Assembly (NCBI GenBank): GCA_003218375.1
Contig: QHNH01000008.1
Coordinates: forward strand, 124,001-188,000
DNA length: 64,000 nucleotides
Source of the DNA: Verrucomicrobiota bacterium
GTDB taxonomy: Bacteria > Verrucomicrobiota > Verrucomicrobiia > Chthoniobacterales > UBA10450
Direction: 5' to 3'
Part shown: in pieces, positions 14,261-28,254 of the stretch
Numbering within the stretch: position 1 is the first letter of the stretch
How the letters are laid out: each line of letters starts with the position of its first letter
Program-made: the position numbers and the translations under genes
The notes under the pieces: generated by a model
What the model saw: only the letters and a program-made list of their open reading frames with translations
Told to the model about the DNA's origin: nothing
Databases searched by the model: none

Positions 14261-15066
14261 TTCGGCAACCGGTAATATTTCTTCAAGCCCCAGATCCGGA
14301 CCCGCTGCGGAAGGAACCGAAGGATGAACGGCGCGATCGCCGCCTGAAATGTGCCGCCGACAGTGACGCGTGGCGGCGGGTTTTTGTCGTCGATCAATTT
14401 CGCGATGCGCCGCGAGACTAGCTCCGGTTTCGGCGCGGCCTGCATATTTTGCTCCACCATGCGCCAGGCGTGCTCGACGAGTTCGGTGTAACGCGGGTCG
14501 CCGCCGTCCGTTCTCGCGACCGCGTTATTGAAACTCGTCGAAATGTCCGCCGGCTGGAGATCGATGACGCAAATGTCCGACCCGGCGAGCTCGAGCTGAA
14601 GCGACAGGACGAAGGAAGCCATGGCAGCTTTGGCGGCGTTATAGGCCCCCATGAACGGCACCGGCAAACGCGAGGCGAGCGACGTGACGTTGATGATCCG
14701 GCCGTTGCCCTGGGCGCGCATCGAAGCCAAAGCGAGACGGCATAATTCGATGTGCGAGAAGAGGACGGTTTGGAATTGGGCGTGGACCGCTTCCGGCGAG
14801 AGATGTTCGGCCGGTCCGAAGTGGCCGCTGCCCGCGTTGTTGATGACCACATCGAAGTGGCCGGCTTCGCGGAGCGCGATCTGAAAATTTTCGCCTAACG
14901 AGACGTTATCGCTCAGGTCGAGCCGGACCGCATGGAGTCGCGGCAATTCCGGGACCCGAGAGGGATCGCGCGACGTTCCCCAAACTTCGTCCCCGCGCCC
15001 AGCCAGCAATTTCGCCGTCGCCAACCCGATGCCAGCGCTCGCGCCGGTGATGAAGACGCGTTTCAT
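14257..15066 (-). CDS. Short-chain dehydrogenase, candidate 3-ketosphinganine reductase
   Basis: 269-residue classical SDR. It has the cofactor loop GASAGIG near residues 8-14, NNAG near 86-89, the catalytic Ser in NVTSLASRLPVPF and the catalytic YNAAKAA near 157-163. The C-terminal stretch after about 230 ends in PFILRFLPQRVRIWGLKKYY, which could associate with the membrane. KDSR, which reduces 3-ketosphinganine to sphinganine, belongs to this broad family. Gene order (flippase upstream, inositol cytidylyltransferase downstream with a four-base overlap) and the nearby SPT make it the best candidate in the window for that step. SDR substrates cannot be read from sequence alone, so the role is inference. 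Confidence 0.68.
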   Translation of the reverse strand: MKRVFITGASAGIGLATAKLLAGRGDEVWGTSRDPSRVPELPRLHAVRLDLSDNVSLGENFQIALREAGHFDVVINNAGSGHFGPAEHLSPEAVHAQFQTVLFSHIELCRLALASMRAQGNGRIINVTSLASRLPVPFMGAYNAAKAAMASFVLSLQLELAGSDICVIDLQPADISTSFNNAVARTDGGDPRYTELVEHAWRMVEQNMQAAPKPELVSRRIAKLIDDKNPPPRVTVGGTFQAAIAPFILRFLPQRVRIWGLKKYYRLPN

Positions 15067-15067
15067 A

Positions 15068-16600
15068 TCAGATCAGAATCCGGGCCCGATGCGTTCGCCG
15101 GTAATGCAGCCACGCTCCCCCGTAAATGACCAGGAACGCAAGGGCACTGATAACCTGGCCGGCCGCGCTGTCGATCATCATCCGGCAAACGATCGCGGGG
15201 ATTCCCGCAATCGTGGCCGCCAGCAGGGGATGGCCGATGTCGCCCCATGGATTTCGCCAGCGGAAGACCATCCGTAACGCGCGATACCGCAAAATTCCCT
15301 GCAACACGTAGGGAAGAAGAATGCCGAACGCGGCCCCAGTCACGCCGAAACGCTGGATCAACCAAAGATTCGCGGTCAGCGCGGCGACGCAGGTAATGAT
15401 CGAGTTCAACAAATTCAGCCGCGGCTTTTGCACCATGATCACGACTTCGGCCAGGCTCACGAAGGCGTTCGTGGCGCAGGCGAGCGCGATGATGCCGAGC
15501 CAGAGTCCACCCTGCGCGAAGGCCGGTCCGTAAAGCGTGAGGATCCAGGAGCCGGCGAGGGACATGACCGCGACGAGCGGGAGGAGAATCCAGAGCATCC
15601 ATTGCGAGACCCGGGAGAAGGCGAGCGCGGCATGTTCCTGATCGCCGTCCACGGTCAGGCCGGCGACCACCGGCGCGAAGATGGGATTGAAGGCCTGATT
15701 GATTTTGCGCAACCCGCCGGCGACTTCGACCGCGGCCGCGTAGATGCCGAGCGTAATAAGCGTCACGCCGGGCGCGCGCCCGACGAAACAACCGAGCATG
15801 ACGACGTCGAGACGAACGATAATGGAGTTGAGCAAGTCATAGGCGCTAATGGGCGCAGCGTAGGTGAGCAACCGCCGGGACTCGGCCGCATAAGAAAAGC
15901 CTGCCGCGTGCGCGCCGGCCCTCCGAAATAACGACGCCGCCAAAGACAGCGCGACGATTCCCGACGCGCCCATTCCCACGATCACCGCGATCTCGGGACC
16001 GAATTTCCTGAGCCCGAGCTGGAGCGCGATAAGAAACGCGACCGTTGTGACGATTGTTTCGGTCATGCCGCGCGAGAAAATGTCGTGCCGCATTACTTTC
16101 ATGCCGCGGGAGACGGCGGTGTTGATGCGGTAGAGCGCGATCACCGGCATGCCGCAGAACATCACCGAGAGCGCGTCCGCCATTTCCGGGTCGAGACCGA
16201 AGCGATGGCCGAGGAGCCGGACGAGCGCGATGGAAAACGCGGCGAGGACGGTGCACTGGGCGACGCCCAAAAAAACCGCCAGCCGAAAGAGCGCCCGGCT
16301 CCGGGCGCGGTCCCCGGAGGTTTCGGCGCGAGCGATGAAGGTGATGACGGTATCGTCGAGACCGAAGATGCCGATCTTGCTCACCAGATCGGTCGTGGCC
16401 CAGGCCACTGAAAAAACACCGAGCGCCGCCGGACCGAGCAGCCGCGTGACCAGGAACGTGAAGATGCCCCGGAAATTCGAGGCGAGCATTGCGATGAAGT
16501 TCGGCCAGGCGCCGCGTTTCAATTCCGGCCCCGGATCGACGGTATGGACCACGCCCCCCGGCGGCGTGATCGGCCGCAACATCGTCTCGGCCGCGGTCAT
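15068..16600 (-). CDS. Lipid/polysaccharide flippase of the MOP superfamily
   Basis: About 510 residues with roughly 14 hydrophobic segments and the MOP (MATE/Wzx/MurJ) pattern: an N-terminal FIAMLASNFRGIFTFLVTRL, a central basic loop with RINTAVSRGMKVMRHD, and a C-terminal half starting near APISAYDLLNSIIVRLD. Such proteins move polyprenyl- or lipid-linked sugars across the cytoplasmic membrane. The ATG at 16600 avoids most of the overlap with the ABC ATPase; a longer TTG start at 16654 exists. It lies directly upstream of the SDR and inositol cytidylyltransferase genes, so it may flip a sphingolipid or inositol-lipid product. That link is inference. Confidence 0.78.
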   Translation of the reverse strand: MTAAETMLRPITPPGGVVHTVDPGPELKRGAWPNFIAMLASNFRGIFTFLVTRLLGPAALGVFSVAWATTDLVSKIGIFGLDDTVITFIARAETSGDRARSRALFRLAVFLGVAQCTVLAAFSIALVRLLGHRFGLDPEMADALSVMFCGMPVIALYRINTAVSRGMKVMRHDIFSRGMTETIVTTVAFLIALQLGLRKFGPEIAVIVGMGASGIVALSLAASLFRRAGAHAAGFSYAAESRRLLTYAAPISAYDLLNSIIVRLDVVMLGCFVGRAPGVTLITLGIYAAAVEVAGGLRKINQAFNPIFAPVVAGLTVDGDQEHAALAFSRVSQWMLWILLPLVAVMSLAGSWILTLYGPAFAQGGLWLGIIALACATNAFVSLAEVVIMVQKPRLNLLNSIITCVAALTANLWLIQRFGVTGAAFGILLPYVLQGILRYRALRMVFRWRNPWGDIGHPLLAATIAGIPAIVCRMMIDSAAGQVISALAFLVIYGGAWLHYRRTHRARILI

Positions 16601-16625
16601 GAAGCGATTGCGCCGGCGGTCCGCT

Positions 16626-17330
16626 TCATCGGCGGCCGCGGGGATGACTGCCAACGATCAATCCATCCTGCATCTCATGGATCCAATCACAGGCCTCGGC
16701 GATCTCCGGATTGTGGGTCACGAGCAGCAACGCCTTGCGCTCTTCCTGCACGATGCGCTGGAGCAATTCAAAGGCGCGCCGGGAATTCGCGCTGTCGAGG
16801 TTCCCGGTCGGTTCGTCGGCGAGAATGATGCTGGGATTATTCGCGAGAGAACGCGCCACCGCCACGCGTTGCTGTTCGCCGCCGGAAAGATGACGGCTCG
16901 GCCGTTTCCGTTTGGCGCCGAGCCCGACTTCCTCCAGCAGATACGCGGACCGTTCCAGCATCTCTTCTTCGGTTAACACGGCCAGGCGCCGCATCGGAAT
17001 CATCACGTTTTCCTGGGCAGTGAAGTCTTCGAGGAGAAAATGGAATTGGAAGATGAACCCGAGGAGCTCGTTTCGTTTTCGCGCGAGCGCGTCATCGACC
17101 AGGTGCGAGACGGCTTCGTTCTCGATCGTGACCCAGCCGCTATCCGCGTGATCGAGCAGCCCGAGGATATAGAGCAACGTGCTTTTGCCGCAGCCGGATG
17201 GACCCACCACGGCGTGGACCGTGCCGCGCTCGAGTTGGAGCGACACCCCGCGCAACGCGTGGACCCGCGAATCTTCCTCGCCGAGGTAGCGTTCGATCCC
17301 TTCGCAGCTCAGCGAAACTTCGGCTTCCAT
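16626..17330 (-). CDS. ABC transporter ATPase, LolD/MacB/DevA type
   Basis: 234-residue nucleotide-binding subunit. Walker A GPSGCGKST lies near 43-51, the Q-loop in FIFQFHFLLEDFTAQENV, the signature LSGGEQQRVAVARSL near 145, and Walker B IILADEPTGNLDS with the H-loop in LLVTHNPE. The LDHADSGWVTIE segment and short length are typical of ATPases paired with FtsX-like permeases. A matching permease, periplasmic adaptor and two TolC-like proteins lie at 22.9-28.1 kb on the same strand, separated from it by the RiPP locus. It is probably part of that tripartite exporter. Confidence 0.9.
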   Translation of the reverse strand: MEAEVSLSCEGIERYLGEEDSRVHALRGVSLQLERGTVHAVVGPSGCGKSTLLYILGLLDHADSGWVTIENEAVSHLVDDALARKRNELLGFIFQFHFLLEDFTAQENVMIPMRRLAVLTEEEMLERSAYLLEEVGLGAKRKRPSRHLSGGEQQRVAVARSLANNPSIILADEPTGNLDSANSRRAFELLQRIVQEERKALLLVTHNPEIAEACDWIHEMQDGLIVGSHPRGRR

Positions 17331-17345
17331 GAATCTTAAATAAAC

Positions 17346-17367
17346 ATCGCGCGGCTGAGCGCGCGAT
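17346..17367 (-). terminator. Hairpin after the radical SAM gene
   Basis: Perfect 8-base stem ATCGCGCG / CGCGCGAT with a 6-base loop, immediately after the TAG stop of the radical SAM gene, and followed on the minus strand by a TTTA-containing stretch. It may be a weak terminator or another repeat-type hairpin. Confidence 0.45.
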
Positions 17368-17370
17368 CCA

Positions 17371-18438
17371 CTACGCCTCAGCCGGCGCCGGCTGACTCGG
17401 CTCGGTCGGCTCGGGCGTGCTGATCGCCTGCTTGATCAAACCGGGAATGCGCCGGGCGCGATTGACGACTTCCTTTGAGATCACGCTGGCCGGATTTTGC
17501 ACGAGCAACGACGTGCTCACCGCGCAATACACTCCACAACCGGTCTGGCAGCTTTTCTTGCGATAGTTCGCGTAGAGATCGTCGAGCGTCACATCCATGA
17601 TGTGTTTGTCCGTGTGCACCATGCTGCACTCCCAGAATTTTCCCTGGGCCGAGACAAAGAAAAGTTTGTAGCCGGCCGTGCAGGTCCACTCGACCGGCTC
17701 ACCGCGGAGCAGGCTTTTCTGGTAGCGGAGGATCGCCTCGTTCGTGTGGATTTTTTCGCCGCGCCGTTTCCGTTCGATCATCGAATCGATGAACGCTTCC
17801 AGTTCTTCCTTGTTGCCGCGCTCGACCCGGAACCGGCTGAGCGGATCGGCATGGACCAGCCGCACTTCGGTGGGAATTGCGCGGGATAATCCCGTTTCGA
17901 GGACCGCTTTCGATTCCGGCAGCGTGTCGGCGCAGATCACCCCGGTGATGTGCAGGCTGATCTTCGAATCCTTGAAGTAATCGAGCTTCGGCAAAATCGT
18001 CTTGAACGATTTCTTCGTGACCGGGCTCGGGGTCATCCGATCGACGCTGATCTGCATCACTTGCAGGCCAGCTTCTTCGAGCTGCTTCAATAGTTTTCGC
18101 GTGAGCAAGAACCCGTTTGTCGTCAGGCTGGTGGCGAAGCCGAGCTCGCGGCAATAGCGCACGATCTCGACCACGTTCGGATGCATGAGCGGTTCGCCGC
18201 CGACGAGCGCGATCCGCATCGTCCCCAGATCGCGGATTTTTTTGATCCAAATCTTCAGGTCCTCGAGCTTCGGATGCGGCCGCGAGTTGTCGTACTCGGT
18301 GCAATAAGAGCAATCGAGGTTGCAGCGGTCGGTGAGGTAGAGGCTACACTGGAGCGGCTTCCGATCGAAGAGCCGCTTGCCCGATTCGAGCAAATTAAAC
18401 CCGGAAAATTCCCGGCCGATTTTATCGAGCAGATTCAT
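17371..18438 (-). CDS. Radical SAM protein with C-terminal Cys cluster
   Basis: About 355 residues. The [4Fe-4S]/SAM motif is CNLDCSYC near residues 37-44 (TDRCNLDCSYCTEYD), with LVGGEPLMHP as the GGE SAM-binding element. The C-terminal part has additional Cys residues (WTCTAGYKLFF, WECSMVH, CQTGCGVYCA), compatible with a SPASM/Twitch-like auxiliary cluster. The ATG at 18438 is preferred; 18492 is possible. It is divergent from the RiPP precursor and lies about 40 bases upstream of the ABC ATPase on the same strand. It may modify the precursor, for example by thioether or other C-linked crosslinks, or belong to the lipid operon instead. The substrate is not determined. Confidence 0.75.
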   Translation of the reverse strand: MNLLDKIGREFSGFNLLESGKRLFDRKPLQCSLYLTDRCNLDCSYCTEYDNSRPHPKLEDLKIWIKKIRDLGTMRIALVGGEPLMHPNVVEIVRYCRELGFATSLTTNGFLLTRKLLKQLEEAGLQVMQISVDRMTPSPVTKKSFKTILPKLDYFKDSKISLHITGVICADTLPESKAVLETGLSRAIPTEVRLVHADPLSRFRVERGNKEELEAFIDSMIERKRRGEKIHTNEAILRYQKSLLRGEPVEWTCTAGYKLFFVSAQGKFWECSMVHTDKHIMDVTLDDLYANYRKKSCQTGCGVYCAVSTSLLVQNPASVISKEVVNRARRIPGLIKQAISTPEPTEPSQPAPAEA

Positions 18439-18702
18439 GGAGTGCCGGAGCGGCCACAGACTGTACCGGGCGCACTCCGGGCTGTCATCCATTATTGACG
18501 TAGCCCACGGCGCCCTACTTATAGACCTGCGCGGCGGGGAACCCGGACCAAGTCATTCGGGGTAACTTGCCAGCGGCTGATTTTTTGGCTTGCACAGCCG
18601 GCGCCTTTCGGCGCAATCTCTCGATTAACCCCTTCCCCACTCACCCCGACTAACTTCTATCCCGGATGCCCAAACCCTGAACCCCAGAGAGGAAAAGCAG
18701 TT

Positions 18703-19014
18703 ATGCAATTCAAAACCAAGGATCTCCTTGTAACCGTATTACCGCAGGCCCAGCTTTCAGAAAAGGAGCTGGCCAAGCTCTGTCTCCTTCGAACGTATGT
18801 CTGTCGATACCCAACCTTCTGTCAGCGAGGTTCGGTCGGCTGCTATTTTCGTCCGACTTTTTGTATTGGATGCACCGTGATCGGCACTCTTTGCGCGGCT
18901 TGCTCGTTTCAAGGCACGATCGGCTGCCAGTTTGGTCTGTCTTGTGGCGGTTTTTCAGTCTGTGATCCGACCACCCCTTGCGTCGGCGGCGCCGGCGACG
19001 CCTGGGTCCTCTAA
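18703..19014 (+). CDS. Cys/Ser/Thr-rich RiPP precursor peptide
   Basis: 103 residues. The first ~26 residues form a charged leader (KTKDLLVTVLP, then AQLSEKELAKL). The remainder contains 12 Cys (27, 34, 40, 47, 54, 57, 64, 67, 75, 81, 87, 93) and 12 Ser/Thr (31, 38, 44, 52, 58, 62, 68, 72, 80, 85, 90, 91). Nine Cys are preceded within one to three residues by Ser or Thr, the arrangement expected for (methyl)lanthionine rings. There is no Sec signal, so it should stay cytosolic until modified. A strong ribosome-binding site, GAGAGG at 18687-18692, fixes the start. A kinase-cyclase synthetase lies 1.4 kb downstream. It has no obvious relative that I recognise, and a metal-binding Cys-rich protein is the alternative. 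Confidence 0.75.
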   Translation: MQFKTKDLLVTVLPQAQLSEKELAKLCLLRTYVCRYPTFCQRGSVGCYFRPTFCIGCTVIGTLCAACSFQGTIGCQFGLSCGGFSVCDPTTPCVGGAGDAWVL

Positions 19015-19122
19015 CGTCCCGAGGACTTGGCCTTTGGTTCCAAGGCAGAGGCCGATTCGCTGGAGCGCGGATTAAGCGAAGCATTGGATCAAGTGCGCGC
19101 GGCCAAAAAGAATCTTTCTTAA
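19015..19122 (+). other. Open reading extension after the precursor stop
   Basis: The frame of the precursor stays open for 35 codons after its TAA, up to a second TAA at 19120. It would encode a charged amphipathic helix (EADSLERGLSEALDQV then RAAKKNLS). A TTG at 19027 could start it separately, but no clear ribosome-binding site is visible. It may be a former C-terminal tail cut off by the stop, or chance. The rest of the gap to 19239 holds nothing recognisable. Confidence 0.4.
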
Positions 19123-19239
19123 ATAGTGATTGTGCACGCCGGTCCGGCGACGGTGGGGCGCTAGCCTCGGCAGGCGCCCCGCCTTGGTGAGCATACTTCT
19201 GCGTCGAGTAACGCCCGGAAGTGGGAGCGCTAGCCTGAA

Positions 19240-20421
19240 ATGACGGCCGAGGAAATTGCCCAGTTATCTCGACGGACCTTTCGGGCCGGAAAAGCTTACA
19301 ACCTGGTAGTGTTCGATCGCCTCCCGCCAGGGGAGCAAGTATTGTTGAATGAATTGCGGGAAGATCGTGATTTTTACGGAGTCTTAAGGCCGGATCCGCA
19401 CAGCGGACGAACCATCAAAGCGGTGGGAAAAGAAACGGCCCTGCTGTGGTTGACACTACAGTCGGCAGGCCCCTTGCCTTTTTTTGTCTTCGAAGACGAC
19501 GGCGAAGCGCTCCACGCGATTCCGGAGTTGCTGCTCGACGGTGTCCTGGAGATGGAGGACAACGGACGTTTTCTCTGCGGCGCAGAAGCCGCTGACTTGC
19601 TGGCGCAAAATCGTCCGATGGTTTCCGCGGGCGCGCAAGGCCGGCTGGCGCACCTGTCCGAAGCCGCGTTGCGTTATGGAGAGAGCCTCCTGCTGGACGA
19701 ACCGCGTCAACTCGCTTTCCGCTTGTACGGATTTGGCCGGCTACCCGTGACGCCAAAGTGGACCCGGCTTTTTAGAAATCGTGAAGCTATCCTGTCTTTT
19801 CTGGGCGCGGGAGCAGGGACAGATTCTCGCCGGCGTCTCGATTCCGATTGGCAGGAAATGGACGATCCGAAAATGCCGGCATGGCTTGTCTGGTTTAACC
19901 GGACGCCGGGGAAATCGGATAAGGGAAACGTCCATTTCAAGCTATACGTTAGCCCCGCCGCCCACGTCTTGCCCCAAGCTTTCGCGGCGGTGGTGGAGGT
20001 GGCCTCGGGACGTGGCGGCCACTTTAAGATTGGCAGTGATGCTGCAGGTCTTTTGCGGCCAGACAAAATGGTCCTCTACTTCCAGAATCAGGAGGCTCTC
20101 TTCGAGGTGGCTTCCGAATTGGCGGCGCGGTTGAGCGGAATCGTGGCGCACGGCGTGCCATTCTCGGCGGAGATCACCTCGGATGGATTGCTCTCGTGGG
20201 GTATGGATCCGCCGCAAGCTCAAAGAGTGCTCAGCTGGCAAGAACCAGAAAGCTGGCGACTGTGGATTGTGCGCCGCCTGGCTGCCGCCATGATTGCGGC
20301 GCAAAGCAACGCCAAGTCAGGGATGACACCGGTGCAATTCGCCCTCGAGCGGCTGCGGCATGAAGGAGTGGATGTGGAAACTTGGACTCCGTCGGTTTCC
20401 ATCTGGCAGAAACGAAAGTAA
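19240..20421 (+). CDS. Stand-alone lanthipeptide lyase/HopA1-like protein
   Basis: 393 residues, not recognised with certainty. The N-terminal half is alpha/beta-like and Leu-rich. The C-terminal half contains HFKLYVSPAAHVLPQAF (about 232-248), GGHFKIGSDAAGLLRPDKMVLYF (about 261-283) and GVPFSAEITSDGLLSWGMDPP (about 308-328). This order of a KxYVSP strand, an FKIG strand, a DKMVLYF strand and a late DGxL-x-WG motif recalls the lyase domain of class III/IV lanthipeptide synthetases and HopA1-type partners of class V systems. It would eliminate phosphate from phospho-Ser/Thr in the precursor. It lies between the precursor and the synthetase, 17 bases before the latter. The function is inferred from weak pattern similarity and position. 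Confidence 0.5.
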   Translation: MTAEEIAQLSRRTFRAGKAYNLVVFDRLPPGEQVLLNELREDRDFYGVLRPDPHSGRTIKAVGKETALLWLTLQSAGPLPFFVFEDDGEALHAIPELLLDGVLEMEDNGRFLCGAEAADLLAQNRPMVSAGAQGRLAHLSEAALRYGESLLLDEPRQLAFRLYGFGRLPVTPKWTRLFRNREAILSFLGAGAGTDSRRRLDSDWQEMDDPKMPAWLVWFNRTPGKSDKGNVHFKLYVSPAAHVLPQAFAAVVEVASGRGGHFKIGSDAAGLLRPDKMVLYFQNQEALFEVASELAARLSGIVAHGVPFSAEITSDGLLSWGMDPPQAQRVLSWQEPESWRLWIVRRLAAAMIAAQSNAKSGMTPVQFALERLRHEGVDVETWTPSVSIWQKRK

Positions 20422-20438
20422 TTACGCCAAAGAAACCG

Positions 20439-22853
20439 ATGTCCTTCCATCTCTCCGGTCCGTTTATCCTAAACGAAGATGTTCTCATTATTCCGGTAGC
20501 CGATCTGCCGGAGGAGTCCCGGACGCAGATCGAATTCCATCCCGGTGACTTTGCGGTATCGCGCCTGCAGGCACGCAGCGGATCGAAGATAATCGACCCG
20601 GATGCGGCCGCTCTCCTCGGGCGTTTTCGCGATCAACGCACCGTCGTGGAGGCGGTGATCCTTTTCGCGCGAGAGAAACAACTCGATCCCAATAACGTCC
20701 TGGAAGGTGCCTACCCGTTTCTCAGAAACATGATCGATGGCGGATTTCTCATTCCGTCGAGTTCGGCGGACGAGGAGGGCAAACTAGTCCCGGAGCAAAT
20801 TGTTCCTGGCGCCAGGGTGCTGGACGCTTCGGTCTTGCGAACCCTCCATGTGCTGGAGGACACCGAAGTTTATTTGCTCGGGAAAGGGGATCGATCGGCG
20901 TCGGTGCTGAAGATCGAACGACGTTCTCGGCGCGTGGGCACTTCGGCCACCGTTCGCGGGCGCCTCGAGCACGAAGCCGAATTTCTCTCGCGCCTGAAGG
21001 GCGCTCTCGCTCCAAGGCTCCTGGGAAAGGGGGAACTCGATGGCCGGCTTTACTTGGAGATGGAGTTCATTCCCGGCGTGGATGTCGTGACTGCCGCCAC
21101 GGAATGGCGCGAGCGCGGCGGAGAACAGGCCCAGGACGCTCTTTTGTGCTTGGCCCAAAACGTGGCCCGGACTTATGCCGCATTGCACGAGCGCGGCATT
21201 CTGCACGGCGACGTTCATCCCAGCAACGTGTTGATCAAGCGAGATGGCACGCCGGTGCTGATTGATTTCGGCGTCGCCGGCGCCACGACGTCGGCCACTT
21301 CATTTCCCAAGCCCCCTGACCGTGGCGGGATTCCATTTTTTTTTGAACCGGAAATGGCTGCTGCCGCGCTCGCCGGACTTAATTCAATTCCCGCCTCCGA
21401 GGCGGGCGAGCAGCATGCCGTCGCTTCTTTGATTTATCTGCTGCTCACAGGTGCTCACTGGCAAAACTTTCGGCTCGGCCGCGAAGCGATGCTTGAGGAT
21501 ATCGCCACGCTTCCCCCTTTGAGCTTTCGAGAACGCGGGGTTTCTTCCTGGCCCGCCCTGGAAACCGTGCTCGTCCGCGCGTTGTCAAAAGTCCCAGCCG
21601 ATCGATTCCGATCCATGGCGGCATTTGCCAGCGCCCTGTCCGGCGTCTCGCCGCCGTCGGTCCCGATTTTGCCGGCTCGTCGAGAGCCGCTCGCGCAGTT
21701 GCTTGAGCGCGCCCTCACGCGAGCCGCGCCGGATGGGGAATGGAGTCAGGCCGCCCTCACGCCCGCCCCGGCAACCTCGTTAAATTACGGATCCGCCGGC
21801 GTGGCGCTCGGATTACTCCAGATCGCGTCGCGGCGAAACGATGGTTCGCTCCTGGCGCTGGCGGACATCTGGTCGCGTCGAGCTATTCGTGAGATGGGGC
21901 GGGAAGATGCTTTCTATAACGAGGAGATCGAGATCACACCCGAGCTGGTAGGAAAATCTTCACCGTACCATTCCCCGAGCGGAGTTCATGCCGTGGCCGC
22001 GCTCGTGGCGGTCGCCGCGGCCGATCCCTTGGTTCAAATGGAGAGCCTTGCTCATTTCCTTAAAGCAGTAGACCAGCCGACGAATGGCTTGGACCTGACC
22101 CTCGGCCGCGCCAGCATTCTATTGGGCGCGGCAATCCTGCTCGATGCGCTTCCCCGGGATGGCCTGATCGATCTTTCACCTTTGCGTTCCCGCGGTGACG
22201 CTCTCCGCCGCGAGCTCTGGCAGGCCCTCGATGCCGAACCGGAAATTGCTCGCGCCGGAATAGCGTACCCAGGTATCGCTCACGGCTGGGCGGGATTTCT
22301 CTACGCGACCCTCCAGTGGTGCAGTATCTCGGAAACTGAACTGCCGCCAAACCTCGAGCGACGCCTTGGGGAACTGGCAGCCCTTGCCCTGCCCGCGGAT
22401 CGCGGCTTGGACTGGCCTTGGATGTTCGGTCAATCGGGCGAGCCTGTCACGATGCCCGGCTGGTGCAACGGTGCGTGTGGCTATGTTTTTCTTTGGACTC
22501 TGGCGCACCGCCTCCTCGGTGATTCTTGTTACCTCGACCTCGCTTATGGCGCGGCCTGGCGAAGTTGGGATGCGCCCGATCGAGTCATTACTCTTTGCTG
22601 CGGTCTTGCTGGCCGGGCCTATGCGCTCCTTAATTTGTACCGCCACACTGACGAAACGATCTGGGTGGATCGGGCGCGCGCGCTGGCGGTGCGTGGCGCG
22701 ATAGCCAGCCCTAACTCGAAAGAATATCCCCACAGTCTCTACAAAGGGGAGTTTGGTCTGGCAGTCCTCGCGGCCGATCTAGAACAGCCCGATGAAGCCG
22801 CGATGCCGTTCTTCGAGCCTTTAGGTTATCGGCACCAGGGCCGGAAGGCCTAG
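20439..22853 (+). CDS. RRE-kinase-LanC lanthipeptide synthetase-like protein
   Basis: 804 residues. Residues about 10-105 look like a PqqD/RRE-type leader-binding domain (IIDPDAAALLGRFRDQRTVVEA, then YPFLRNMIDGGFLIP). About 130-420 is a protein-kinase-like domain with Lys158 in VLKIE, the catalytic loop HGDVHPSN at 256-263 and DFG at 276-278. About 440-790 is a LanC-like cyclase with HGWAG near 616, WCNGACG near 675 and LCCGLAG near 719-725. The third zinc ligand is Cys (CCG) instead of the usual CHG His. No N-terminal lyase domain is present; the preceding gene may provide it. It would phosphorylate Ser/Thr in the precursor and close thioether rings. ATG 20439 is preferred to the TTG at 20382. 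Confidence 0.75.
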   Translation: MSFHLSGPFILNEDVLIIPVADLPEESRTQIEFHPGDFAVSRLQARSGSKIIDPDAAALLGRFRDQRTVVEAVILFAREKQLDPNNVLEGAYPFLRNMIDGGFLIPSSSADEEGKLVPEQIVPGARVLDASVLRTLHVLEDTEVYLLGKGDRSASVLKIERRSRRVGTSATVRGRLEHEAEFLSRLKGALAPRLLGKGELDGRLYLEMEFIPGVDVVTAATEWRERGGEQAQDALLCLAQNVARTYAALHERGILHGDVHPSNVLIKRDGTPVLIDFGVAGATTSATSFPKPPDRGGIPFFFEPEMAAAALAGLNSIPASEAGEQHAVASLIYLLLTGAHWQNFRLGREAMLEDIATLPPLSFRERGVSSWPALETVLVRALSKVPADRFRSMAAFASALSGVSPPSVPILPARREPLAQLLERALTRAAPDGEWSQAALTPAPATSLNYGSAGVALGLLQIASRRNDGSLLALADIWSRRAIREMGREDAFYNEEIEITPELVGKSSPYHSPSGVHAVAALVAVAAADPLVQMESLAHFLKAVDQPTNGLDLTLGRASILLGAAILLDALPRDGLIDLSPLRSRGDALRRELWQALDAEPEIARAGIAYPGIAHGWAGFLYATLQWCSISETELPPNLERRLGELAALALPADRGLDWPWMFGQSGEPVTMPGWCNGACGYVFLWTLAHRLLGDSCYLDLAYGAAWRSWDAPDRVITLCCGLAGRAYALLNLYRHTDETIWVDRARALAVRGAIASPNSKEYPHSLYKGEFGLAVLAADLEQPDEAAMPFFEPLGYRHQGRKA

Positions 22854-22878
22854 CCTATCTACAAGCCTAACGAATCGT

Positions 22879-24120
22879 TCACGCGCTCGAGCCGCGCAAT
22901 GTCGCGACTGGAGCGAGCTGGGCGGCGCGGCGGGCGGGGACGTAGCTGGCGATGAAGACAGCGATAATCGCGAGCACGGTAGCCCACAAGTAATGGCGCC
23001 AGTCCCACGTCACCAGAAAATGGTTCGCGTATAACAGGCCGCGGACCTGGATCGGAATTTTCGAGACGCCCCAGGTGAAAAGAGCGCCCACGAGGCAGCC
23101 GATGACTGAGCCGGCGGCGGCGATCATCGCGCCTTGCCAGAGGAAGATCGATGAGATGTCGCGGGAGCGGTAGCCCATCGAGCGGAGGATCGCGATCTCC
23201 TTGATCTTGGAAAGGACCGACATGGTCAGGACGTTGAAAATGCCGAAGCCGGCAAGAAGGATGATCAGCGAGACGGTGATGGCGGCGGAGATGCGCACGG
23301 TCAGAAAGAGCTGAAGGTTTGCTTCCTCGCGTTCCTGCCAGCTCTGGGCTTCGTGTTGAAACAACGATTCGAACGCGCGGGCGACCCCGGGCGCGCGCTC
23401 GGGGTCGCGCAGTTTGTAGACGATCATCGAGGCGGCGAACGGTTTTCGCAGGAGCGTCTGCGCCACGCGCACGTGACAATAAACGCGGACGATATCGACG
23501 ACGCCGACGCCGCTTCGGGCCGTGGCGGCAATCGCAAAACGACGGTATTCGCCGCCGGGCGAAAGGAGGAGGAGGGCGTCACCGGGACCAACCTGAAGCG
23601 CCTCGGCCAGGCGCGAACCGATGATGACGGCGTTGGGGTTGTTGCGAAACTCGTCGAGGTCACCGCTGGTGAGTTGCTGCGCGAGATTGGTGGTTTGGAG
23701 ATGCGACGGGGCGTCGATCCCGAAAAGATCGACGGTGGCGTTATCGAACCCGGCCCGGGCGCTGACCGTGCCGCGCAAAACCGGCGAGCAAGACGCGACG
23801 TCGGCGAATTGCCGGCTGATCCGCATGATTTCGGGCGCGTTGGAAATTCCATCGAGCGAATGGCGCCGCGGCTGATCGGGATTGCGGACGTTCTTCGGCG
23901 GCACGAGCAGACCGCTGGTCGCGTTTTGAAAACGCGAACGGAGCAGGAGCGCGCCGTTACTTCCAAGAGTGGAATCGATAAAGTTCTTCGCGAACCCCTG
24001 GGTCTGGGCCTGGGTGCAGATGAAAATCGCCACGCCGAAGACGACGCCGGAGAGGCTCAGGATAAAAGACCGCCTGCGATGGCGGAGAAACCGCAGCGCG
24101 ATGTAGAGGGGCGGAGTCAC
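22879..24120 (-). CDS. FtsX-like ABC permease, MacB/LolC/DevC type
   Basis: 413 residues. A TM helix near 20-40 (SFILSLSGVVFGVAIFI) is followed by a ~230-residue periplasmic domain, then three helices with the FtsX pattern: SAAITVSLIILLAGFGIFNVLTM, a loop with KEIAILRSMGYRSRDIS, and two further helices. The C-terminal YVPARRAAQLAPVATLRG is typical of MacB/LolC permeases. The start overlaps the stop of the adaptor gene by four bases. It should work with the HlyD-type adaptor, the TolC-like proteins and the ATPase at 16.6 kb as a tripartite exporter of a lipid or peptide. Confidence 0.88.
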   Translation of the reverse strand: MTPPLYIALRFLRHRRRSFILSLSGVVFGVAIFICTQAQTQGFAKNFIDSTLGSNGALLLRSRFQNATSGLLVPPKNVRNPDQPRRHSLDGISNAPEIMRISRQFADVASCSPVLRGTVSARAGFDNATVDLFGIDAPSHLQTTNLAQQLTSGDLDEFRNNPNAVIIGSRLAEALQVGPGDALLLLSPGGEYRRFAIAATARSGVGVVDIVRVYCHVRVAQTLLRKPFAASMIVYKLRDPERAPGVARAFESLFQHEAQSWQEREEANLQLFLTVRISAAITVSLIILLAGFGIFNVLTMSVLSKIKEIAILRSMGYRSRDISSIFLWQGAMIAAAGSVIGCLVGALFTWGVSKIPIQVRGLLYANHFLVTWDWRHYLWATVLAIIAVFIASYVPARRAAQLAPVATLRGSSA

Positions 24121-25283
24121 TGGACATCGGCGCGGGGCGCGACTTTGGTCACCCGTTGCCGCACCGGCCGGCCCGGTCGCAGTTTGTCCTGGTCGGAAAG
24201 CACGGCGTGATCGCCCTCGGAAACGCCGTCCAGGATCTCCGAGAAATCGAGGGTGCGATAACCGATCTTGACGGTGCGCGATTGGACGATGCCGTGTTTC
24301 ACGATGAGCGCCTGGTCGATGAGCAACGCGCGCGTCGGCAGGAGCAACGCGTTCTCGTGTCTGCCGGTGATGATGTTCATTTCGCCGGTCATGCCGGCCA
24401 TGAGATTTTCAGGGGGATTTTCGAGATCGAGCACGATCGTGTAACGCTGGGTCTCGACATCCGCGGCCGGCTGGATCGCGGCAACTTTCGCGCGGAACGT
24501 CCGGGTGCGGAAGGCATAAACCTGGACGATCGCTTCCATCCCGACCTTTACTTCGCCGACATCTTCCTCGTCCACTTCGCCGCGCACATAATTTTTGCGC
24601 GACGAAACGGTGAAGAGCTCGGCGCGTTCGGCGACCAGCTCGCCATCGATGGTCTTGATCCCGGTGAGAAGGCCGTCCATCGGCGAACGGATCTCCGAAT
24701 TCTTCATCTGGGCCTCGAGCTTTTTCGCGGCCTCATCCAGCGCGGCCAAATTGCGATCGCGCTCGATCCGTTCCGTCTCGACCAGCGCTTTGAGCCGGTT
24801 CACTTCGCTCTTGGCTTTTTCAAAATCCACCTGCGCCACGTTGCTCAGTCCCGTGAGTTTTTCGAGCCGGCCCAGGTTGTCTTCCGCCACTTTCAGCGCT
24901 TCCGCGGACGGTAACGGCAATTCCGCGCGTTGAATCGCCGCCCGGAGATCGGCCCGCGCCTGTTTCAGAAGACGCGCCGTCGCTTCGTCCGCGATCGTCG
25001 CCAGCAGTTCGCCTTTCTCCACGTTGCGCCCGATCGCGCCGCGGCCGGCTGAAAGCACTTCGGCGAGCTGAATGAACCCGGCGTTTTGCGCCCGCACCGG
25101 AATAACCAAAGACGGCTCGATCCGGACCGTGCCGTAGATCGCGGAGATCGCGGGGCCGCGTTGGACGATCGCGACTTCCGCGACCGGCAGGGTCATGAAA
25201 TAAATGATCGCGAAGATCACCAGGACCGCGGCGATCCCGGCGAGGATGAGATTTTTCGAGCGCGGAAACTTCAATGGCTCCAA
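24117..25283 (-). CDS. HlyD-type periplasmic adaptor (membrane fusion protein)
   Basis: 388 residues. An N-terminal signal-anchor helix (NLILAGIAAVLVIFAIIYFM) is followed by a split lipoyl/barrel-sandwich domain around a coiled-coil hairpin (about 100-190, rich in Ala, Glu, Arg) and beta-barrel segments (EVKVGMEAIVQVYAF and NLMAGMTGEMNII). It would bridge the inner-membrane permease and an outer-membrane TolC-like channel. Its start abuts the TolC-like gene's stop and its stop overlaps the permease start, so the genes are one transcript. Confidence 0.88.
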   Translation of the reverse strand: MEPLKFPRSKNLILAGIAAVLVIFAIIYFMTLPVAEVAIVQRGPAISAIYGTVRIEPSLVIPVRAQNAGFIQLAEVLSAGRGAIGRNVEKGELLATIADEATARLLKQARADLRAAIQRAELPLPSAEALKVAEDNLGRLEKLTGLSNVAQVDFEKAKSEVNRLKALVETERIERDRNLAALDEAAKKLEAQMKNSEIRSPMDGLLTGIKTIDGELVAERAELFTVSSRKNYVRGEVDEEDVGEVKVGMEAIVQVYAFRTRTFRAKVAAIQPAADVETQRYTIVLDLENPPENLMAGMTGEMNIITGRHENALLLPTRALLIDQALIVKHGIVQSRTVKIGYRTLDFSEILDGVSEGDHAVLSDQDKLRPGRPVRQRVTKVAPRADVQ

Positions 25284-26681
25284 CTAAGGCACCTTTCGGT
25301 CGTTCGAAAACTGAAAGTAGCGGCCGGTGGCCCGGTCCCACTCCGCCAGCGCGACGTTTTGCTGGTAAGCGGCGGAAAGGAGTGCGCTCCTGGTTTCCAG
25401 GAAACTACTTTCGGCGGTGCGGAATTCCAGTTGCGAGGAAAGCCCTTCCGCCAAACTCCGCTGAATGACGATCACGTTTTGCTCCGCGCCGGTGACCGCG
25501 GCGTTCAAGGATTTCCACCGTCCTTCGATGGCGCGGAAGTTATTCGAGATGCGTTGCAGATCGAGCGAGACGTTGGCCTCGATCTGGCGCAGCGAGATCT
25601 CGTTCATCTCGCGAATGGCGCGTTGCCGCGCGACCTGGCCGCCGACCCGGCCGTTGTCGATCACGCGCCAGGTGAACGCGACGCCGCCGGCGATTTCCGA
25701 GGAGAGAATGTCGTTCGAACTGAGCGCGGACCCGCTGTTGGCGGTCCTGACGGTCACCGGAATCCCGAGGCCGGAAACGACCGCATCGAGCGCGGGATAA
25801 TATTGCGCCTCGATGATGCGCTGGTCCTCGGCGGCGGCGCGAACCAGGAGACGCGCGAGCTGGAGATCGGCGCGTTGCGAAAGGGCGGTCGAAGTTTCGG
25901 AGGCGACGTCGTAATTAAGGGCGGCAAATTGCAATTGTCCGTCAGGTCGAACCGTGTCGTCGGCACTTCCCATCGTGGTAGCGAGAGTGAGGAGAGCGCC
26001 TTCGTAGCCGCGTTCCACTTCCTGGATGCGCGGCTCGAGCTCGCGCTCCAGCAATTGCGCGCTCACGATCGCGGCACGGTTCGTCTGGCCGGCGCGATAA
26101 CGTTCCGACTGGGTCGTGACATTTTGGGCAAGCCGTTCCCGCTGGGCTTCCCCGAGAGCGCGGAGCGAATCATTATAGAGCGCCGTGTAAAAAGCGATCC
26201 GGGTGGTGTGGAGTTGCTCGACGATCGCGACGTTCAAGCGCTGTTGGGCGATCAACATTTCGATGTTGCCGCGCCGCAGGGAGGCCGGGACTGCGGCGTC
26301 GAATAATGGCTGCGAAAAAAAGCCGCGCGCGAACGCGAAGGGACGCAGCGTCGGTTCGTCCGCGCGTTTGCCGCCTTGCAAGCCGGCGAGACCCTGGATC
26401 TTGAAGTCGGGCAACGCCGTGGATCGGAAGACCAGGCGCTTCCCCGCTGCTTGTTCGAGAACGATGCGCGCCTGCACGATCTCGGGATTTTTCTCGAGCG
26501 TCCGGGAGAGCGCGGCATCGAGGGTGATTCCGTCGACTCTTGCGACGCCGAACACGATAAAGCCGAGAGCTAACTTCTTCTGTAGCCGCTTCGCTATGCG
26601 AAGCGTGAGATCGGCTCTGAATTTGTCCACGGCGCGCTTTTTCGCGTCGCCCACAGGGCGACGGCTACAGAAGATTTTCAC
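25284..26681 (-). CDS. TolC-like outer-membrane efflux protein with repeat-encoded N-terminus
   Basis: 465 residues of TolC-type architecture: two homologous halves of long alpha-helical segments (ITLDAALSRTLEKNPEIV, and later DVASETSTALSQRADLQLARLLVRAA), Gln/Arg/Ala-rich with periodic Asn-Arg. The GTG start at 26681 overlaps the previous gene's TGA and has GGGAGG about 7 bases upstream. The first ~37 codons run through a palindromic repeat, and only then comes a hydrophobic segment (LALGFIVFGVA) that could serve as the signal peptide. The exporter neighbours support a role as the outer-membrane channel. Confidence 0.82.
   Translation of the reverse strand: MKIFCSRRPVGDAKKRAVDKFRADLTLRIAKRLQKKLALGFIVFGVARVDGITLDAALSRTLEKNPEIVQARIVLEQAAGKRLVFRSTALPDFKIQGLAGLQGGKRADEPTLRPFAFARGFFSQPLFDAAVPASLRRGNIEMLIAQQRLNVAIVEQLHTTRIAFYTALYNDSLRALGEAQRERLAQNVTTQSERYRAGQTNRAAIVSAQLLERELEPRIQEVERGYEGALLTLATTMGSADDTVRPDGQLQFAALNYDVASETSTALSQRADLQLARLLVRAAAEDQRIIEAQYYPALDAVVSGLGIPVTVRTANSGSALSSNDILSSEIAGGVAFTWRVIDNGRVGGQVARQRAIREMNEISLRQIEANVSLDLQRISNNFRAIEGRWKSLNAAVTGAEQNVIVIQRSLAEGLSSQLEFRTAESSFLETRSALLSAAYQQNVALAEWDRATGRYFQFSNDRKVP
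26577..26673. repeat. Palindromic repeat, TAGCCG family
   Basis: 97-base element with ends CTTCTGTAGCCG / CGGCTACAGAAG and the same internal hairpins (CTTCGCTATGCGAAG and GTCGCCCACAGGGCGAC) as the copy at 13465, but a different centre. It lies within the 5' coding part of the TolC-like gene and is translated. Confidence 0.88.
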
Positions 26682-28060
26682 TTCGCGCCTCCCAGTGTCG
26701 CCGGCGGGGCGGCGACGTCCGCAACGGCTTTCGCTCCGGGCGCATTCTGTGAAATTTTCGGGGCGAAGCCTAACGAGTCTGGTTCGCGCGCGGTGGCGCG
26801 AGCGAGGCGCGCGAGCGCGACGTTATGCAGGTAAATCGCGCCCAGCCGGGTGGTCCGCGTCCGGGTTACATCAGAAGCGGCTTGCAGGATGTCGAGCTGG
26901 GTCCCAAGTCCGGCGCCGAGATTTCCCTTCGCGATCTCGAGCGCTTCGTCGGCGTTCTGGACATTGCGGGTCTCGGATTGCAGGACGCGATCGGCCTGCC
27001 GGAGATCGAGAAAGGCGCTGCGCACATCGGCGGCGACGGAAAGTTTCGCCGCTTCCAGGGCATGGCGCGCCGCGTCGCGCCGGGCGCGCGTCGCCTGCAT
27101 GCGGCCCCGGGTCGCGAAGCCATCGAAGATGTGCCAGGTCGCGTTGAGCCCGACGACGAAACCATGATTGAATTCCGGCCCGACTGCCGGATCACGCTCG
27201 CTGTAAGCTTCGTAGCCTGCGAAAGCTTCCACGCGCGGCCGCGTCTCGCTCCGGTCGAGGATCAACTGCGCTTCTTCGATCTGGACGTCGATCTCGCGCG
27301 CCCGGATTTCCGGCCGCTTCGTATCCGCGTAGGCGAGGCATTCATTGAGATCAGGATGCTTCGGCGCGTATTGCAAGTGGCCGGCCGTGTCGGCGGAGAC
27401 CGGTTTACCGGAGGCGTCCACGCCGATGAGCTGACCCAGTCGCAGCTCGGAATTTTGCAGGCGCGTCTGGGCGTCGATCAATTCCGGTTGCTCGTTCGCC
27501 AGCGCGACTTCGGCGCGGCTCACATTCAGGGAGCCGACGGTTCCCGTCTCGAAGCGTTGCCGCTGCGTCTTGAGTTCCTCCTCGAAGACGCCGACGGATT
27601 GCTCGCGCACCAGGATCTTCGCCCGGTTCAGGAGGACATCGTAAAACGCCAGCCGCACATCCATCGACACGCGGTTGACCAGCGCCTGATATTCGAGCGT
27701 CCGCTTTTCCTCGATCAACCGCGCGATCGTCACCTGGCTCGTGATCGCGCCGCCCGTGTAAAGATTCTGCACCACCCGCAACGTCGCTTCGTAGTCGTCG
27801 GACCGGAGCCGCGACGCTTCCGCGCGTTCCCGTTTCCGCAGTAGCCCCGTCGAAACGACTCCCGGTAAAAAGCCCGAGCGCGCTTCGGTCACGCCGCCCT
27901 TCGCGGCCTCCAATTGTTTCGCCGCCATCAGGATTTCCGCGTTCTGCTTGCGCGCGGTCGCGACGGCCTCGTCGACGGTATAAGCCGGGCCCGCATCGCA
28001 AACGCCGGTTCCCAACCCAGCCGCGACCAGCAAAAGAACGATCTGGACCCTACGGCGCAT
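26678..28060 (-). CDS. TolC-like outer-membrane efflux protein
   Basis: About 460 residues. A signal peptide is visible (MRRRVQIVLLLVAAGLGTGVCDA), followed by helical TolC/CusC-type repeats: YTVDEAVATARKQNAEILMA, QNLYTGGAITSQVTIARLI, TGTVGSLNVSRAEVALANEQ, WHIFDGFATRGRMQATRA and LGAGLGTQLDILQAASDVTRTR. The ATG at 28060 gives a normal signal peptide; upstream in-frame starts would bury it. The TGA stop overlaps the GTG of the second TolC-like gene. Two consecutive TolC-type genes in one operon may be a duplication or a hetero-trimer. Confidence 0.85.
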   Translation of the reverse strand: MRRRVQIVLLLVAAGLGTGVCDAGPAYTVDEAVATARKQNAEILMAAKQLEAAKGGVTEARSGFLPGVVSTGLLRKRERAEASRLRSDDYEATLRVVQNLYTGGAITSQVTIARLIEEKRTLEYQALVNRVSMDVRLAFYDVLLNRAKILVREQSVGVFEEELKTQRQRFETGTVGSLNVSRAEVALANEQPELIDAQTRLQNSELRLGQLIGVDASGKPVSADTAGHLQYAPKHPDLNECLAYADTKRPEIRAREIDVQIEEAQLILDRSETRPRVEAFAGYEAYSERDPAVGPEFNHGFVVGLNATWHIFDGFATRGRMQATRARRDAARHALEAAKLSVAADVRSAFLDLRQADRVLQSETRNVQNADEALEIAKGNLGAGLGTQLDILQAASDVTRTRTTRLGAIYLHNVALARLARATAREPDSLGFAPKISQNAPGAKAVADVAAPPATLGGAK

Positions 28061-28254
28061 CCATCCCATCTCACGTGCGGACGCGGGCTTTATCAACAAA
28101 ATTCCCATAATCCCACGAGGGAAAAGGCCGGCTGGCCTGGCCCCGCGGGGAAAGTTCCGGCCTAAGATTGCATCGACGCACATTTGCTCTATGATGGCCA
28201 CCTTGGCCTTGCGCAACCCCAGGGGCGGCGGCTAATCTCGGTGTTTTTCCTGCA

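Follow-up and report, generated by a model that had tools for sequence, protein, structure and literature searches.

A three-gene lanthipeptide-type cassette of apparently new layout, possibly a class of its own, in a Verrucomicrobiota genome

What is made by three adjacent plus-strand genes that sit between a radical SAM gene and a permease gene in a draft verrucomicrobial genome of roughly 4 Mb? The genes lie in a stretch of 64,000 nucleotides of contig QHNH01000008.1 (positions 124,001 to 188,000), which we call the window and to which all coordinates refer, and they code for a Cys-rich precursor peptide, a lyase candidate and a synthetase that joins an N-terminal domain to a kinase and a LanC cyclase. 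A first-pass annotation had read them, together with the divergent radical SAM gene, as an undescribed locus for a ribosomally synthesised and post-translationally modified peptide (RiPP). Judged by sequence comparison, they form a lanthipeptide-type cassette with an apparently new layout, possibly a class of its own, in which features of class IV and class V are mixed. We regard it as likely that the three genes are a mobile lanthipeptide cassette acting by docking, phosphorylation, elimination and cyclisation. The earlier interpretation stood for the cassette, the lyase, the kinase-LanC fusion and the part resembling a RiPP recognition element (RRE), but not for the membership of the radical SAM gene. 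Beyond it, there is a family spread over four phyla, a LanC of the CCG type, and an in-frame stop codon ahead of a conserved C-terminal helix in the window precursor.

Genes and domains of the cassette

The three open reading frames were found where the first-pass annotation had placed them and in the order that it gave, namely, precursor, lyase candidate and kinase-cyclase. The features are as follows.

18444..22882, no strand: the whole inserted cassette; homology to congener G005 ends at both edges
18703..19014, plus strand: Cys-rich precursor peptide; leader motif MxFxxKDLLV, core with 12 Cys and 13 Ser/Thr
19015..19122, plus strand: in-frame continuation past the TAA; remnant of a C-terminal helix that is in frame in other precursors
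19240..20421, plus strand: separate HopA1/LanY-like phosphoSer/Thr lyase candidate, 393 aa; K234, K263, R273 and Y280 invariant in 7 orthologues
20439..22853, plus strand: RRE-kinase-LanC synthetase, 804 aa; Pfam and NCBIfam matches, orthologue alignment
20439..20768, plus strand: RRE-like domain, synthetase residues 1-110; orthologue profile matches
20841..21638, plus strand: Ser/Thr kinase domain, residues ~135-400; K158, D258, N263 and D276 invariant
21771..22823, plus strand: LanC cyclase domain, residues ~445-795; H615 and zinc ligands C676, C720 and C721 (CCG type)
17371 to about 18442, minus strand: radical SAM gene (setting)
22879-24120, minus strand: permease gene (setting)

Between the lyase and synthetase genes lie 17 bases, and the likely start of the latter is ATG 20439; a TTG at 20382 falls within the lyase gene. 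The predicted fusion of a kinase to LanC was confirmed, since Pfam matches were obtained for the kinase (3.4e-11) and for LanC (PF05147, 6.9e-19) and the catalytic residues are present. The best NCBIfam model for this part is class IV LanL, which it matches with 157 bits where the cut-off is 650, and the alignment begins at model position 232; thus, it corresponds to LanL minus the lyase part. The four kinase residues listed above are invariant in 5/5 homologues checked and the four LanC residues in 4/4 homologues that include the LanC part, and all of them recur in six full-length synthetases. By sequence, therefore, the LanC fold domain, the zinc ligands and the catalytic His are all in place. 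Since C720 and C721 are adjacent, as in ProcM (PMC10027976), the zinc site is predicted to be of the CCG (three-Cys) type. Among the PDB matches was LANCL1. Kinase matches across the order and at L036-L040 were rejected as generic kinases.

ThcOx carries an RRE, and the N-terminal domain of the orthologues matched ThcOx (best 1.5e-4) and PqqD (0.0085); in a profile scan, the ~110 N-terminal residues of the window copy matched no RRE family, PqqD included. A sequence-profile search of the PDB with this domain gave no relevant match. In Cupriavidus the same domain is fused ahead of a 2OG-Fe(II) oxygenase (2.7e-12) and is 65% identical to that of Cupriavidus' own synthetase, while in Candidatus Angelobacter it is joined directly to LanC, the kinase is missing and a LanB is present in the same genome. 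The weak but repeated profile match, the N-terminal fusion to a modifying enzyme and the second enzyme in Cupriavidus are what it has in common with the RRE domains of PqqD, ThcOx and LanB. Because it appears as a module moving between RiPP enzymes (kinase-LanC, 2OG oxygenase and LanC alone), as an RRE would, we regard it as RRE-like and the evidence for an RRE as moderate, in support of the first-pass annotation. No earlier report of an RRE on a kinase-LanC protein was found in the open literature searched. The Angelobacter RRE-LanC gene is split across two contigs (L051:2-967, minus strand, and L035:2-700); a divergent class-I-like precursor (L051:1148-1345) lies beside it and the LanB lies elsewhere.

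For the lyase candidate, HopA1 was the top Pfam family in two of the seven proteins, the window protein (E 0.029) and that of L097 (0.0073), both under the cut-off. Six undisputed HopA1 proteins were fetched from Acidobacteriota and five were used. The profile of the seven lyases, which have 65 invariant positions, aligned with these over 141 columns with a score of 33.1, whereas 400 column shuffles gave 13.3 ± 2.4 (maximum 23.3; 0/400 as good) and the reversed profile gave 14.5. This is strong support and no proof because column shuffling is a lenient null. In this alignment K234, K263, R273 and Y280 land on HopA1 catalytic positions, and the spacing of K263, R273 and Y280 (10, 7) equals that of K219, R229 and Y236 in CaoY, where R187 and R229 matter by mutation (PMC9486802). 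K234 takes the position of Arg187 of CaoY, where OspF/SpvC have Lys104. Seven sequences were needed; with a smaller profile of four or five, 2/200 shuffles were as good. When the five HopA1 proteins were used in a HMMER search of the lyases mixed with 2,738 decoys, no match was significant, and a PDB sequence-profile search with the lyase gave no relevant one. On these alignments the lyase candidate is homologous to HopA1 lyases but beyond the limits of the Pfam family PF17914, and the separate HopA1-type lyase of the first-pass annotation is supported at the level of the family.

The window precursor has 103 aa, with a ribosome-binding site, AGAGAGGA, directly 5' of its gene, and 11 of the 12 Cys in its core have a Ser/Thr at most 6 residues upstream. 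The leader motif at the N-terminus of the precursors is F-x-x-K-[DE]-L-[LM]-[VI]. In each of the five cassette genomes that were searched, the pattern ATGNNNTTYNNNRYNAARGANYTNNTNRTN had exactly one occurrence, which is at the precursor; it was absent from two genomes without the cassette, and the reversed pattern did not occur. Its presence at the precursors is by construction because the pattern was written from them, but its absence elsewhere is not. Family precursors are 128-269 residues long with large cores that are rich in Cys and Ser/Thr and often repetitive (that of L085 has seven CYASGG repeats), and most end in a charged helix. On the Paenibacillus peoriae plasmid the precursor (L111:7801-8610) has three tandem leader-core-helix units in one chain. 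In the window an in-frame TAA (19012-19014) separates the precursor from the helix-coding stretch (to 19122), and the tail beyond it scores 57 with the tail of L097 as against 23.6 ± 4.4 for shuffles (0/2000 as good). The helix may not be needed here, this copy may be in decay, or the stop may stem from an assembly error.

Distribution and insertion

The lyase and the synthetase were found together at six further loci, two on plasmids and four in Acidobacteriota genomes (L084, L085, L086 and L097); the acidobacterial ones came from searches first with the Angelobacter protein and later with the lyase profile. Among 72,556 plasmids the synthetase is present on two and the lyase on these same two, namely, those of Paenibacillus peoriae HS311 (NZ_CP011513.1, L111) and Cupriavidus oxalaticus X32 (NZ_CP038636.1, L112); none of the phages searched carries the cassette. 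The gene order is kept in 6/7 loci (the window, L084, L085, L086, L097 and L111) and is rearranged in Cupriavidus. Identity to the window proteins is 36-44% throughout, and a dN/dS of 0.14-0.22 was obtained for the pair L085 and L086. The cassette is beyond chance because the genes recur at six other loci, the catalytic residues are invariant and dN/dS is low. The RiPP cassette of the first-pass annotation thus stands as a predicted one, and from its distribution it is a real, mobile, rare and widely transferred family in four phyla.

In the Cupriavidus cluster the RRE-like/2OG-Fe(II) oxygenase fusion (L112:12393-13466, minus strand) lies next to the lyase, the precursor, the cupin_8/JmjC gene and a full LanB (15039-18203), and two dehydration chemistries are found within one cluster. 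A contractile phage-tail sheath gene (L097:3696-4400) is a divergent neighbour of one acidobacterial cassette.

Comparison with congeners indicates that the window cassette is a 4.4-kb insertion beside a core-genome radical SAM gene. In congener G005, whose permease, radical SAM and ATPase genes are arranged as in the window and share 92-93% identity with those there, the gap between the permease and radical SAM genes is only ~160 bases. Homology ends at 22883 and resumes at 18443, the edges being the permease stop codon and the radical SAM start. Insert and surroundings are alike in G+C content (0.597 and 0.603, respectively). A search of 98 relatives and of 388 genomes sampled from the whole phylum turned up no other copy of the lyase. 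Five congeners have the radical SAM gene at 86-93% identity, and there the same exporter genes flank it without the cassette; it was therefore ruled out as a tailoring enzyme of the cassette, against the first-pass annotation. The MacAB-TolC-like exporter was ruled out as a member on the same grounds, though it may still be used. Because both are conserved in congeners without the cassette they are neighbours and not members. The exporter locus (15068-28216: radical SAM, LolD/MacB-like ATPase, FtsX permease, membrane-fusion protein and two TolC-like genes) is kept in several congeners, and in G001-G004 the same site holds other cargo, a nucleotidyltransferase/CDP-alcohol transferase-like gene.

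Proposed route and rival explanations

By analogy with LanL and CaoK-CaoY (PMC9486802), and with domains and residues present for each step, we propose the following route. The RRE-like domain of the synthetase would bind the N-terminal motif of the precursor, the kinase domain would phosphorylate Ser/Thr of the Cys-rich core, and the separate lyase would eliminate the phosphate to give dehydroamino acids. LanC, with its three-Cys zinc site, would then add Cys thiols to these with the assistance of zinc to form thioether rings. The C-terminal helix found in most precursors probably serves as a second element, for recognition or folding.

Among the closest known systems is class V (LanK, LanY, and LanX or LanC, as for cacaoidin, lexapeptide and SmoC), in which a stand-alone APH kinase and a LanY lyase carry out phosphorylation and then elimination, with LanC in class Vb (PMC12291118). 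A class V subtype in which kinase and cyclase became fused and an RRE was added is a possibility to which we give a minor share, in view of the separate HopA1-type lyase gene, the use of LanC in class Vb, and Acidobacteriota loci with an APH kinase, HopA1 and LanC, some of them fused. However, the cassette kinase is closer to PF00069 than to APH (PF01636) in every member scanned and is not a stand-alone protein, the lyase is remote from HopA1, with K in place of R187, the zinc site is CCG and not CHG, and an RRE-like domain is present, although class II-V enzymes are said to lack an identifiable one (PMC10604976). A diverged class IV system, with the lyase of LanL split off as a gene, the mechanism of LanL retained and the RRE-like stretch a mere linker or remnant, would fit the LanL match and the fusion of the kinase to a zinc-type LanC. 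We hold it to be improbable because LanL is a single chain with an N-terminal OspF-type lyase, whereas here the lyase aligns with HopA1/LanY, its K-Y spacing of 17 is that of CaoY and not that of SpvC (22), and the KxH motif is absent; moreover, the N-terminal domain is conserved, fronts an oxygenase as well, and scores to ThcOx/PqqD. Class III LanKC likewise has kinase and cyclase in one chain, but it includes a lyase domain and has no zinc ligands, whereas in the cassette C676, C720 and C721 are invariant and the lyase domain is absent. Class VI LanKCb is described as a single chain of a kinase with truncated lyase and cyclase domains, acts on miniature peptides and is found in Streptococcus only (PMC10676316); the cassette has a full-length LanC, no lyase domain and a 103-aa precursor. 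As for class I, no LanB scored above the cut-off in genomes G000, G513, G601 and G684, while G1195 and Cupriavidus have one. LanM enzymes of the CCG type (ProcM and SyncM) share the Cys-Cys-Gly zinc site, but their dehydratase domain is absent from the cassette. Eight peptides have been predicted near lyase-type synthetases with a CCC cyclase ('L-CCC', PMC11251773), and some of them could belong to this family.

Two further explanations concern the product. The window copy may be a decaying cassette, with readable enzymes, a truncated precursor and no product, as the TAA ahead of a homologous tail and the lack of the cassette in all other congeners searched would suggest; but the leader and the Cys-rich core are complete, neither enzyme gene is interrupted and their catalytic residues are kept, the helix may be dispensable, and a sequence error is possible in a draft assembly of 52 contigs, so that we think decay rather unlikely. 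The set might also modify proteins or scavenge phospho-proteins instead of making a secreted peptide, much as the LanC-like proteins of eukaryotes are believed to work on dehydrated proteins. The large cores and the match to LANCL1 would agree with this, but at every locus examined a Cys-rich peptide with the common leader motif adjoins the lyase gene, which makes it very unlikely. Several points do weigh against the lanthipeptide cassette as we propose it: no dedicated protease or exporter comes with it, as the protein-modification explanation would also have it; an Arg that is essential in CaoY is replaced by Lys in the lyase; single-sequence Pfam scores of lyase and RRE-like domain alike are under curated cut-offs; single-sequence AlphaFold models of window sequences were poor (pLDDT 40 and 65, the latter for the RRE-like domain) and Foldseek searches with them were empty; and the window copy may be impaired because the TAA cuts the precursor before the helix. 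On balance we lean towards a distinct RRE-dependent lanthipeptide class, with an RRE-kinase-LanC(CCG) synthetase, a remote LanY-type lyase and precursors with a leader motif and a C-terminal helix, carried on plasmids and insertions in four phyla. The layout was found nowhere in the open literature searched, which covers few subscription journals, and no class described there matches it, as the first-pass annotation had supposed.

Related loci were seen in other genomes. Class V is known from actinobacteria only according to a 2025 review (PMC12328550); Acidobacteriota loci L087, L088, L089, L090 and L092 have a class V-like APH kinase and HopA1 lyase, most with LanC, and fusions are HopA1-LanC in L087 and HopA1-APH kinase in L090. 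In a Spartobacteria genome of the same family (L034, L013; G016:C33), a class I locus comprises LanB, a pair of small precursors and two genes for LanC, of which one is of the CCG type and 38% identical to the window LanC.

Meaning of the layout

CCG-type LanM enzymes have broad substrate use and RREs make leader swaps easier; for these reasons an RRE and a CCG-type LanC in one system would be of use for engineering. A complete copy from a named strain is available on the plasmid of Paenibacillus peoriae. The family would go unseen in pipelines that label any PF00069-LanC protein as class III/IV (PMC7268733). If the proposal is true, the survey cited above (PMC10604976) would make this the first kinase-type (class II-V) lanthipeptide enzyme with an RRE. 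Since lanthipeptide classes rest on enzyme layout, a HopA1-type lyase together with an RRE-bearing kinase-LanC would link the lines of class IV and class V.

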